Shown here in pieces: positions 22,393 through 31,773 of a stretch of 64,000 nt of DNA. The notes below the pieces were generated by a model, which ran no database searches, was not told the DNA's origin, and saw only the letters and a program-made list of their open reading frames with translations. The position numbers and the translations under genes were made by a program. The DNA is from Bolinopsis microptera (Eukaryota; Ctenophora; Tentaculata; Lobata; Bolinopsidae). Location: the NCBI RefSeq assembly GCF_026151205.1, contig NC_087080.1, forward strand, positions 1,063,812 to 1,127,811, given 5' to 3'. The stretch's first letter is position 1; each line of letters starts with the position of its first letter.

Positions 22393-22501
22393 TTGTCCGA
22401 TTTCCTGATATGCACGGAGAGATAGTCCTCTTCAGGAGCCGACGTTAGGATGAAGGGATGCCACTCAAATATAGACAACTCACTACTTGCAGGAAGACAT
22501 A
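22393..22501 (-). CDS. NADPH oxidase FAD-binding exon (source of the satellite)
   Basis: On the minus strand, after the acceptor CTCCCCAG, the exon encodes Y-V-F-L-Q at its start. It continues to [18 protein letters not shown] and HIRKSD, then the donor GTGAGT. [12 protein letters not shown] is the FAD-binding signature of NOX-family oxidases, which transfer electrons from NADPH to oxygen across a membrane. Compared with the satellite units it lacks one base in CTGCAA(T)GTAG, so the frame breaks between the first residues and EWHPF. That could be a real loss of function or an assembly error. It is the only copy that continues past HPFTLT. Confidence 0.75.
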
Positions 22502-25500
22502 CTGGGGAGGATGAATTGGGTTAGGGTGAAGGGATGCCACTCAAATATAGACAAATCACTACATTGCAGGAACACGTCCTGGGGAGGGTGTAGTGGGTTA
22601 GGGTGAAGGGATACCACTCAAATATAGACAAATCACTACATTGCAGGAACACGTACTGGGAAAGATGTAGTGGGTTAGGGTGAAGGGATGCCACTCAAAT
22701 ATAGACAAATCACTACATTGCAGGAACACGTACTGGGGAAGATGTAGTGGGTTAGGGTGAAGGGATGCCACTCAAGTATAGACAAATCACTACATTGTAG
22801 GAACACGTACTGGGGAGGGTGTGGTGGGTTAGGGTGAAGGGATGCCACTCAAGTATAGACAAATCACTACATTGTAGGAACACGTACTGGGGAGGGTGTA
22901 GTGGGTTAGGGTGAAGGGATACCACTCAAATATAGACAACTCACTACATTGCAGGAACACGCACTGGGGATGATGTAGTGGGTTAGGGTGAAGGGATGCC
23001 ACTCAAATATAGACAAATCACTACATTGCAGAAAAACGTACTGGGGAGGGTGTAATGGGTTAGGGTGAAGGGATACCACTCAAATATAGACAACTCACTA
23101 CATTGCAAGAACACGTACTGGGGAGGGTGTAGTGGGTTAGGGTGAAGGGATACCACTCAAATATAGACAAATCACTACATTGCAGGAACACGTACTGGGG
23201 AGGGTGTAGTGGGTTAGGGTGAAGGGATACCACTCAAATATAGACAACTCACTACATTACAGGAACACGTACTGGGGAGGGTGTAGTGGGTTAGGGTGAA
23301 GGGATACCACTCAAATATAGACAACTCACTACATTGCAGGAACACGTACTGGGGAGGGTGTAGTGGGTTAGGGTGAAGGGATACCACTCAAATATAGACA
23401 AATCACTACATTGTAGGAACACGTACTGGGGAGGGTGTAGTGGGTTAGGGTGTAGGGATGCCACTCAAATATAGACAAATCACTACATTGCAGGAACACG
23501 TACTGGGGAGGGTGTAGTGGGTTAGGGTGAAGGGATACTACTCAAATATAGACAACTCACTACATTACAGGAATACCTACTGGGGAGGATGTAGTGGGTT
23601 AGGGTGAAGGGATACCACTCAAATATAGACAACTCACTACATTGCAGGAATACGTACTGGGGAGGATGTAGTGGGTTAGGGTGAAGGGATACCACTCAAA
23701 TATAGACAACTCACTACATTGCAGGAACACGTACTGGGGAGGGTGTAGTGGGTTAGGGTGAAGGGATACCACTCAAATATAGACAACTCACTACATTACA
23801 GGAATACGTACTGGGGAGGATGTAGTGGGTTAGGGTGAAGTGATACCACTCAAATATAGACAACTCACTACATTGCAGGAATACGTACTGGGGAGGGTGT
23901 AATGGGTTAGGGTGAAGGGATAACACTCAAATATAGACAACTCATTACATTGCAGGAACACGTACTGGGGAGGGTGTAGTGGGTTGGGGTGAAGGGATAC
24001 CACTCAAATATAGACAACTCACTACATTGCAGGAACACGTACTGGGGAGGGTGTAGTGGGTTAGGGTGAAGGGATGCCACTCAAATATAGACAACTCACT
24101 ACATTGCAGGAACACGTACTGGGGAGGATGTAGTGGGTTAGGGTGAAGGGATACCACTCAAATATAGACAACTCACTACATTGCAGGAACACGTACTGGG
24201 GAGGCTAAAGTGGGTTAGGTTGAAGGGATACCACTCAAATATAGACAACTCACTACATTGCAGGAACACGTACTGGGGAGGATATAGTGGGTTAGGGTGA
24301 AGGGATACCACTCAAATATAGACAACTCACTACATTGCAGGAACACGTACTGGGGAGTGGGGAGGGTGTAGTGGGTTGGGGTGAAGGGATGCCACTCAAA
24401 TATAGACAACTCACTACATTGCAGGAACACGTACTGGGGAGGATATAGTGGGTTAGGGTGAAGGGATACCACTCAAATATAGACAACTCACTACATTGCA
24501 GGAACACGTACTGGGGAGGGTGTAGTGGGTTAGGGTGAAGGGATGCCACTCAAATATAGACAACTCACTACATTGCAGGAACACGTACTGGGGAGGGTGT
24601 AGTGGGTTAGGGTGAAGGGATACCACTAAAATATAGACAACTCACTACATTGCAGGAACACGTACTGGGGAGGGTGTAGTGGGTTAGGGTTAGGGGATAC
24701 CACTCAAATATAGACAACTCACTACATTGCAGGAACACGTACTGGGGAGGGTGGAGTGGGTTAGGGTGAAGGGATGCCACTCAAATATAGACAACTCACT
24801 ACATTGCAGGAACACGTACTGGGGAGGGTGTAGTGGGTTAGCGTGAAGGGATACCACTCAAATATAGACAACTCGCTACATTGCAGGAACACATACTGGG
24901 GAGGGTGTAGTGGGTAAGGGTGAAGGGATACCACTCAAATATAGACAACTCACTACATTGCAGGAATACGTACTGGGGAGGGTGTAGTGGGTTAGGGTGA
25001 AGGGATACCACTCAAATATAGACAACTCACTACATTGCAGGAATACGTACTGGGGAGGGTGTAGTGGGTTAGGGTGAAGGGATACCACTCAAATATAGAC
25101 AACTCACTACATTGCAGGAATAAGTACTGGGGAGGGTGTAGTGGGTTAGGGTGAAGGGATACCACTCAAATATAGACAACTCACTACATTGCAGGAACAC
25201 GTACTGGGGAGGGTGTAGTGGGTTAGGGTTAAGGGATACCACTCAAATATAGACAACTCACTACATTGCAGGAACACGTACTGGGGAGGGTGTAGTGGGT
25301 TAGGGTGAAGGGATGCCACTCAAATATAGACAACTCACTACATTGCAGGAACACGAACTGGGGAGGGTGTAGTGGGTTAGGGTGAAGGGATACCACTCAA
25401 ATATAGACAACTCACTACATTGCAGGAACACGTACTTGGGAGGGTGTAGTGGGTTAGGGTGAAGGGATGCCACTCAAATATAGACAACTCACTTCATTGC

Positions 25501-30349: not shown

Positions 30350-31177
30350 CCTTATCGGACCTTATTTGGACGGACATTACATGAACGGACATAATTATGA
30401 ACGGACATTAATATGAACGCTCGAAGGCATTCAAAACCATCAAAAATCCGAATTTTTTTCAATTTTTTGACGTTTTTTTAATTTCAGCAGTTTTTTAAGC
30501 AGTCATTAAGCAGTAAAAATGTTAAAATATGTGTACATGATCAGTGTCTAATATCACATATCATCTTCATCAAATGAGTTTTCGTGCATGAAATAGTCCA
30601 TGCTTAAACAAGCATCAGTGATTTCTAGCTTTATGGAAACCTTTTTTATCAAACTACCCGGTCCTGCATTTCAGCGTTAACTTTTACAAGCCATTCGGCG
30701 TGAAGTGGTTTTATCTTAGACAACTTTAGGTTAACCTTAACATCACGTGGAGCTTTCCTAGCACTGTTTCATTACCTCCCCTCAGTAATATGAACTATAA
30801 CAACGTCGGACAATGTCCTTGGCAACACGATTTACCGTAATATCTAGAGGCTGGAACAAGTTTGTTATGTTGGCGGGAACTAGCTCATGAACTATGTTGT
30901 TGAGTGCCATAATTTCGTTGACTTTTTAGAGTAGAGTTTTCTGTGCCTCCGGCAGACCAAGGAGAACCTTTCCGTCGTTAACTTACGGCACAATAAAGTT
31001 CTCATAGTTGTCATATTCTGGACAAAAAGTTCGAAATGGAAAAATTTTTGAAAAAATTTCAACGGACTTTAACTTGGACGGACATTAATTGAACGGACTT
31101 TATTAGAACGGACATTAAGATGAACGCTAGGGCCTCCAGCGTTCAAGTAATGTCCGTCCAAATAAGGTCCGATAAGG
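30350..31177. mobile_element. 828 bp DNA element with TA target duplication, inside the satellite
   Basis: Inverted ends CCTTATCGGACCTTATTTGG and onward for ~38 bp. TA flanks each side and the satellite unit is restored exactly on removal (ctcaaata-TA-gacaactc). The interior has repeated GAACGGACATTA words near both ends and no transposase frame. TA duplication fits the Tc1/mariner-like group. Confidence 0.8.
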
Positions 31178-31773
31178 TAGACAACTCACTACATTGCAGG
31201 AACACGTATTGGGGAGAATGTAGTGGGTTAGGGTGAAGGGATACCACTCTAATATAGACAAATCACTACATTGCAGGAACACGTACTGGGGAGGGTGTAG
31301 TGGGTTAGGGTGAAGGGATACCACTCAAATATAGACAAATCACTACATTGCAGGAACACGTATTGGGGAGAATGTAGTGGGTTAGGGTGAAGGGATACCA
31401 CTCAAATATAGACAAATCACTACATTGCAGGAACACGTACTGGGGAGGGTGTAGTGGGTTAGGGTGAAGGGATACCACTCAAATATAGACAAATCACTAC
31501 ATTGCAGGAACACGTACTGCCACTGGGGAGGGTGTAGTGGGTTAGGGTGAAGGGATACCACTCAAATATAGACAAATCACTACATTGCAGGAACACGTAC
31601 TGGGGAGGGTGTAGTGGGGTAGGGTGAAGGGATGCCACTCAAATATAGACAACTCACTACATTGCAGGAACACGTACTGGGGAGGATGTAGTGGGTTAGG
31701 GTGAAGGGATGCCACTCAAATATAGACAAATCACTACATTGCAGGAACACGTACTGGGGAGGATGTAGTGGGT
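31178..31773 (-). repeat. NADPH oxidase satellite, distal block (~8 units)
   Basis: The same 77 bp units resume after the insertion and stop at GTGGGTTTTTATTTTTATTT. The block is separated from the main array only by the two inserted elements. Confidence 0.9.

Follow-up and report, generated by a model that had tools for sequence, protein, structure and literature searches.

Layout of the array and its NOX2-like host copy

The window examined here, 64 kb of the Bolinopsis microptera genome (C9:1063812-1127811), carries on its minus strand a NOX2-like NADPH oxidase gene copy, which by its sequence is a broken duplicate, and at one intron-exon boundary of this copy a tandem array of 77-bp units (Table 1). 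The array lies in two parts, for which Tandem Repeats Finder (TRF) gave 101.4 and 7.7 copies. Wrap-around alignment resolved it into 109 head-to-tail units, 108 of them whole and one split by an insertion, and 98 of the 108 whole units are free of indels. The satellite of about 100 copies that a preliminary description had placed at 22393..31773 is thereby confirmed, except that some 0.9 kb of that interval (30259-31179) is inserted sequence. The insert splitting the unit is transposon-like. The donor-proximal part of the array starts immediately after the ATAAAAATAAAAAC of the intron.

In the orientation of the gene, each unit is composed of 18 nt of intron end, CCACTACACCCTCCCCAG, followed by 59 nt of NOX2-like exon start, TACGTGTTCCTGCAATGTAGTGAGTTGTCTATATTTGAGTGGTATCCCTTCACCCTAAC. 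The preliminary description had every unit as an acceptor plus NOX codons. This structure holds, but the 15-nt acceptor that it quoted is exact in only 58 of the 108 whole units (92 if one mismatch is allowed) and the quoted peptide in only 16 (100 within two residues). The His of EWHPF is replaced by Tyr in 68 units, which is the commoner form, and retained in 31. Ten of the 108 whole units have an in-frame stop within the exon part.

The two exons flanking the array are referred to as exons A and B. Exon A ends in ...KQHAGQ in phase 0, as first described, and is 95% identical over 56 amino acids to the exon query from the paralog L012, which is intact across these exons. The joined exons A and B of L012 match the cytochrome b-245 heavy chain in PDB (7u8g, 8kei, and 8gz3; E values from 2.8e-29 to 4.5e-29), with weaker matches to DUOX1, bacterial ferric reductases, and NOX5, and they also match Pfam FAD_binding_8 (E 2.5e-18). 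These matches support the NOX identity originally given to the flanking exons. Exons A and B are thus homologous to the start of the dehydrogenase domain of animal NOX2, from which the window copy differs in being frameshifted and in that no transmembrane (TM) exons were found for it.

Table 1. Positions of the array, its host copy, and related loci (window coordinates unless a contig is named)
Feature	Position	Strand	Remarks
Main 77-bp array	22444..30258	-	101 whole units and the last 28 bases of the split unit
Last unit of main array (terminal exon edge)	22444-22519	-	
Donor-proximal array part	31178..31774	-	7 whole units and the first 49 bases of the split unit
Two insertions within one unit	30259..31179		Sides of the split unit: 49 + 28 = 77 bases
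Smaller insertion, ~89 bp	30259-30347		Closes with a repeat of ACTCAAATAT
832-bp element with 40-bp terminal inverted repeats	30348-31179		Ends TACCTTATCGG...CCGATAAGGTA; arms 30348-30387 and 31140-31179 are 98% complementary
NOX2-like exon A (..SYWWVGVPLIIYTIDRIVRWSRRFNPAVLYKVIEHPGPCLELRMRKKGWKQHAGQ)	31981..32145	-	Phase 0, donor CAG/GTGAGA, open reading frame
Exon B (terminal copy)	22393..22501	-	Runs to SAPEED segment and donor GTGAGT; compared with L009, L010, L012
Remnant of next NOX2 exon (KIAVDGPYGTPSD)	22105..22143	-	
NADPH-binding exon remnant (TQDIFKYKTTVLIGAGV, stop, VTPYASILKSLW)	21869..21973	-	In-frame TGA where parent has Gly
47-bp tandem array	32527..32998		Upstream edge of NOX2-homologous block; among 14 other loci compared, in L009 only
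18-bp AT-rich tandem array	20809..21341		Downstream of last NOX2 remnant
L009, single-copy boundary	C3:19.61 Mb		76/77 bases as unit consensus
L010, single-copy boundary	C3:19.19 Mb		76/77 bases as unit consensus
L011, single-copy boundary	C9:3.32 Mb (C9:3316278)		75/77; NOX2 fragment, exon reads into stop after ...RKSGD
L012, single-copy boundary in parent gene	C3:11.45 Mb		74/77 bases as unit consensus
L013 array	C5:21.20 Mb		4 units, one partial
L014 array	C5:20.91 Mb		8 units, one partial
L015 array	C8		About 15-17 units, some disrupted
L016-L020	C4:152200-239499		Five tandem indel-rich copies of the L015 NOX2-fragment locus, ~19.5 kb apart

Origin of the unit at a NOX2 splice boundary

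Whole-genome searches covered the 264.65-Mb assembly in 232 contigs. The search with the unit gave 206 matches, and those listed, of which only the best candidates were scored, fall in the window and twelve other places. Every unit occurrence among the matches listed lies within these thirteen NOX-derived places, the window included. A search for the 77-bp unit elsewhere in the genome had been suggested at the outset, and a satellite unrelated to NOX, the result that would have severed the unit from the gene, is rejected within that same set of matches. The five C4 places were all read at the exon, and two of them were compared with the window flanks.

Four of the places carry the boundary once. 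Because their sequences agree with the unit in 74-76 of its 77 bases, they establish that the array originated from a NOX boundary, and the initial proposal of an amplified NOX intron-exon boundary is borne out. The exon of the single-copy loci reads CCTAAC/TACAGC in L009 and L010 and CCTAAC/TTCAGC in L011 and L012, their intron reads AAAAAC/CCACTAC (CCACCAC in L012), and the joint between array units reads CCTAAC/CCACTAC. These exon, intron, and joint sequences therefore identify the founding event as a tandem duplication of 77 bp between breakpoints that have a 3-base microhomology, AAC, in common. The duplicated segment spans the 3' splice site.

A near-complete gene of NOX2 type was found only on C3, at about 11.417-11.451 Mb. 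A human NOX2 sequence used as the probe matches this locus (L012, with L040 and L041) in gapped stretches that fall between residues 16 and 424 and follow in order on a single strand. The boundary is present once in this parent gene, behind a 224-nt intron, and the frame is open through it. The 51-residue TM exon of L012 gave one match in the whole genome, C3:11448131-11448283. Pfam Ferric_reduct likewise matched just the C3 TM place, in a search insensitive enough to miss other NOX-like loci.

The other places are NOX2 fragments in varied condition. Exon A is broken in L009 and L010 and carries an insertion in L015, and the upstream intron of L013 and L014 has been replaced by unrelated sequence. 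The C4 copies differ from L015 by ~10%, more by gaps than by mismatches; L019, for example, shows 362 mismatches and 497 gap openings when aligned with L015 over 10,022 columns. The C4 copies have the look of long-read sequence left uncorrected in the assembly, not of old duplicates, and owing to this gap-rich divergence they were excluded from the copy-number series. A lone exon-A piece at C11:19984685 is a further NOX2 fragment.

Lesions of the window copy

The window copy retains exons A and B and the remnants of two later exons only. Compared with the other loci, the terminal unit in exon B has a 1-bp deletion near codon 6, CAAGTAGTG against CAATGTAGTG, and the resulting frameshift leads to a stop before SAPEED in the frame of the acceptor. 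Two more changes in exon B, an 8-bp deletion and a G-to-A substitution, sit immediately before the donor, as seen against L009, L010, and L012. The NADPH-binding domain is not intact either, with a TGA within the GAGVGVTPY exon. Nor was the six-helix ferric-reductase membrane domain found: no match to the TM part of NOX2 with an E value below 2 occurred in the 64-kb window, and the L012 TM exons had no DNA-level match there. The homology to the parent stops at 32532, where the 47-bp array begins. The parent gene has repeats similar to the 18-bp array after its corresponding exon.

Exon A was joined to each of the 109 acceptors and read unspliced to the donor at 22393. None of the 109 reads in frame to the SAPEED segment, leaving the copy with no in-frame FAD-binding segment, and 74 of them stop after 44 codons; by comparison, the identical reading at L012 runs past this point with its frame intact. 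The terminal unit had been described as continuing into the SAPEED segment and a donor, and its acceptor as the sole productive one. Both the sequence and the donor are in place, but the 1-bp deletion puts the segment out of frame with the unit's own acceptor, and the claim of a last productive acceptor fails. The frameshift, the 8-bp deletion, the TGA, and the lack of any TM exon found together mark the window copy, as far as its sequence can tell, as a broken NOX2 duplicate. A single one of these lesions might be due to an error of assembly, not easily all of them, and the absent exons are not explained in this way.

Sequence evolution of the array

The mean pairwise identity of the units is 95.35%, an average difference of 4.65%, and 80 of the 108 whole units are distinct. 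Successive units are more alike than all pairs (0.9586 vs 0.9535), a value above all 1000 shuffles. No higher-order repeats are evident, with mean identities nearly flat at lags 1-15 (0.953-0.959). The variant T42 occurs in 15 of 21 edge units and in 4 of 87 interior units, where the edges are the 7 and 14 units at the two ends, set after the list of variants was known. A distribution of this kind is what one usually sees where unequal exchange has homogenised and expanded the interior of an array.

The donor-proximal whole unit has T42 in the L015 array as well as in the window array. In the tree of the upstream intron, which leaves out L013, L014, and three C4 copies, the window groups with L015 and two C4 copies at a support of 93/92, below the tool's mark of 95. 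Because they share T42 and group together by the upstream intron, the window and L015 arrays probably share descent. The downstream tree, from which L011 was left out as too short and in which the insertion was cut from the L012 row, separates L009, L010, and L012 as a clade (99/98) from the array loci.

Protein-coding selection on the units was considered and rejected: among the 51 distinct exon variants 12 are synonymous, compared with a null mean of 12.9.

G-quadruplex motif at the unit joint

On the plus strand, the consensus joint GGGGAGGGTGTAGTGGGTTAGGGTGAAGGG is a canonical G-quadruplex (G4) motif (G3+, loops 1-7). In the parent its two halves are separated by the length of the 77-bp segment, one at either end, and only the duplication joins them. 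The motif is present at 66 of the 109 joints and in 2 of 5000 shuffled units. It is absent from 26 kb of the parent and from the two single-copy boundaries checked (L009 and L012), and the rest of the window has 4 such motifs on each strand. Position 9 of the unit governs its presence: the motif occurs at 64 of 68 joints with C and at none of 32 with T. All 4 adjacent pairs of identical units have C at this position, which is uninformative given that 68 of the 108 units have C.

A plausible hypothesis is that the G4 motif drove the expansion of the array, for which the other arrays give mixed support. Among the four arrays compared, L015 fits such a role poorly, with 3 motifs in 15-17 units, and L013 with 1 motif and L014 with 0 in 8 units also speak against it. 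The G4-containing minisatellite CEB1 is described as unstable in yeast lacking Pif1 and its mutated-G4 arrays as stable (Ribeyre et al., 2009, PMC2673046). The present array resembles CEB1, as presented there, in having a G4-capable motif in many units; it differs in that the instability of CEB1 was demonstrated in yeast pif1 mutants, while here a motif match is at hand, created at the duplication joint (PMC2673046). In a bolder version the satellite would have seeded itself: the first duplication would have fused the G4 halves, the joint would have driven further copying, and the longer arrays would have kept their G-runs, with C at position 9. We consider this rather unlikely.

Splice signals and alternative explanations

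The array is rich in splice-like signals. The acceptor AG is intact at 104 of 109 units. CTAAC, which we take to be a good branch-point match, ends 98 of the 108 whole units, and the duplication joint sets it ~19 nt before the next AG. In addition, GTGAGT occurs 19 nt into the exon part (TGTA/GTGAGT) in 86 of the 108 units and is absent from 22. Together these motifs would delimit a candidate 58-nt intron, defined by sequence match to GTGAGT, CTAAC, and AG, in 73 of the 107 successive whole-unit pairs, one of which spans the split unit.

Such signals invite two readings based on splicing. The preliminary description had about 100 acceptors in competition, so that the length of the array could tune or silence the oxidase; the model takes the copy to be expressed and the acceptors to be equal. 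The preserved AGs, the CTAAC in front of most of them, and the open exon A with its good donor would all fit. However, the terminal acceptor is itself out of frame and not one of the others reaches SAPEED, the copy bears other lesions besides, the window yielded no TM exons, and no protein is left to tune, unless by way of a chimeric or non-coding transcript. The TM exon that was searched for occurs only on C3. As a regulator of a working oxidase the array is rejected, the proposal that its length sets oxidase output was not upheld, and we regard a splicing competition of this kind as extremely unlikely. The array is probably not a switch on the oxidase. Alternatively, each joint might make a new 58-nt intron that uses the cryptic exonic donor, with the transcript cut into 19-nt microexons or spliced stepwise. 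The three signals do coincide in most successive pairs, and a comparable layout is reported as a spliced new intron in the potato RNA-dependent RNA polymerase (RdRp) gene, where one duplication across an intron-exon boundary created an intron whose splicing has RNA-seq support (PMC4974935). The duplicated segment crosses such a boundary in both systems, and by the account of that report the downstream copy supplies the polypyrimidine tract and 3' splice site while an upstream cryptic exonic GT can serve as donor. Yet the potato case is a single duplication with proven splicing; here a broken duplicate holds 109 copies, the candidate introns come from motif matches, and the joint itself provides the CTAAC (PMC4974935). 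Moreover, GTGAGT is missing from about a fifth of the units (22/108), exons of 19 nt are very short, and the product would not restore the oxidase given the lesions of the window copy, which leaves repeated intron gain highly improbable.

An inflated or invented array length, as an artefact of assembly, has to be weighed as well. Tandem copy number is hard to assemble, and the five related C4 copies look like uncorrected sequence. Nevertheless, the array in the window has many distinct units, an edge-interior structure, and one insertion inside it, and the same joint recurs in further arrays on C5 and C8. The units are real regardless and their exact number alone is uncertain, so we judge an artefact very unlikely.

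Neighbouring features in the window

Several other features share the window. A C-type lectin domain open reading frame (ORF) at 33913-34863 on the plus strand adjoins the NOX2 fragment. On the minus strand, two rhodopsin-type seven-transmembrane receptor ORFs occupy 36211-37773 and 43872-46790, the second with an LDL-receptor class A domain; in both, 15-bp minisatellites (75.7 and 42.8 copies) code for the C-terminal part and give DPSPS-like repeats. Tandem arrays of 10- and 20-bp AGCGCTGG-type units at 8683-10362 run in opposite orientations as a mirror-image-like series. At 56919-58301 on the plus strand lies an ORF that encodes a NERD nuclease-related domain; its UvrD-helicase match is weak, just under the cut-off. 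At 59859-62471 on the minus strand is an 870-residue ORF with an N-terminal GIY-YIG domain (Pfam E 1.1e-5), which presumably belongs to a Penelope-like retroelement.

Discussion

The satellite very probably arose from a NOX2 gene fragment, by duplication of a splice boundary within a dead duplicate, as an array that is neutral and non-coding. The order of events would be as follows. A NOX2-like duplicate without the N-terminal TM exons, and hence already non-functional, would have undergone one 77-bp tandem duplication over the 3' end of an intron and the 5' end of the next exon via the AAC microhomology; that the TM exons were lost before this duplication is the order we infer. Further segmental duplications may then have moved the array to other contigs, where arrays would have settled at different lengths (about 4, 8, 15-17, and 109 units). 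The window array would have grown to the largest of these while its interior was homogenised toward derived variants. It would code for nothing and evolve neutrally, with the G4 motif possibly helping its growth. On this reading the window array is an extreme case of a boundary-crossing tandem duplication turned into a satellite in a dead duplicate.

Several points weigh against this explanation. The intactness of the parent gene itself is not proven. Its C-terminal matches, at C3:11421828 (E 9e-4, with a TGA inside) and C3:11417225 (E 7e-4), are weak; they lie on the same strand, 23-28 kb beyond the last ordered NOX2 match, and Pfam NAD_binding_6 gave three places in the genome, none of them at the parent locus. 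The tree is unrooted, and a 99/99 set unites the window, L013, and L014 with the single-copy clade while leaving L015 and C4 outside. Under another root, the single-copy loci could descend from arrays, or arrays could have arisen repeatedly. Finally, the exon variants by codon position (1:2:3 = 18:13:20) lean toward constraint, within the synonymous null.

Satellites are reported to arise from tandem repeats within retrotransposons (PMC7004042). Going by the title of that work, the likeness is that a satellite grows out of a tandem repeat contained in a longer element, and the difference is that the source here is the splice boundary of a host gene, not a transposon (PMC7004042). In open-literature titles and abstract openings on satellites, minisatellites, exon-intron boundaries, pseudogenes, and NADPH oxidase, we found no published case of a splice-boundary satellite.

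The array does not reveal a new mode of oxidase regulation; it repeats the anatomy of intron gain by duplication about a hundredfold. How a satellite begins is difficult to follow without knowledge of its source. In this one genome the source boundary, the exact joint, its microhomology, unexpanded copies, and several array lengths are all available, and the system is a test bed for asking if a duplication may create its own driver of expansion. If the array did seed itself, the copies at 1, about 4, 8, 15-17, and 109 units would form a natural series of satellite birth.

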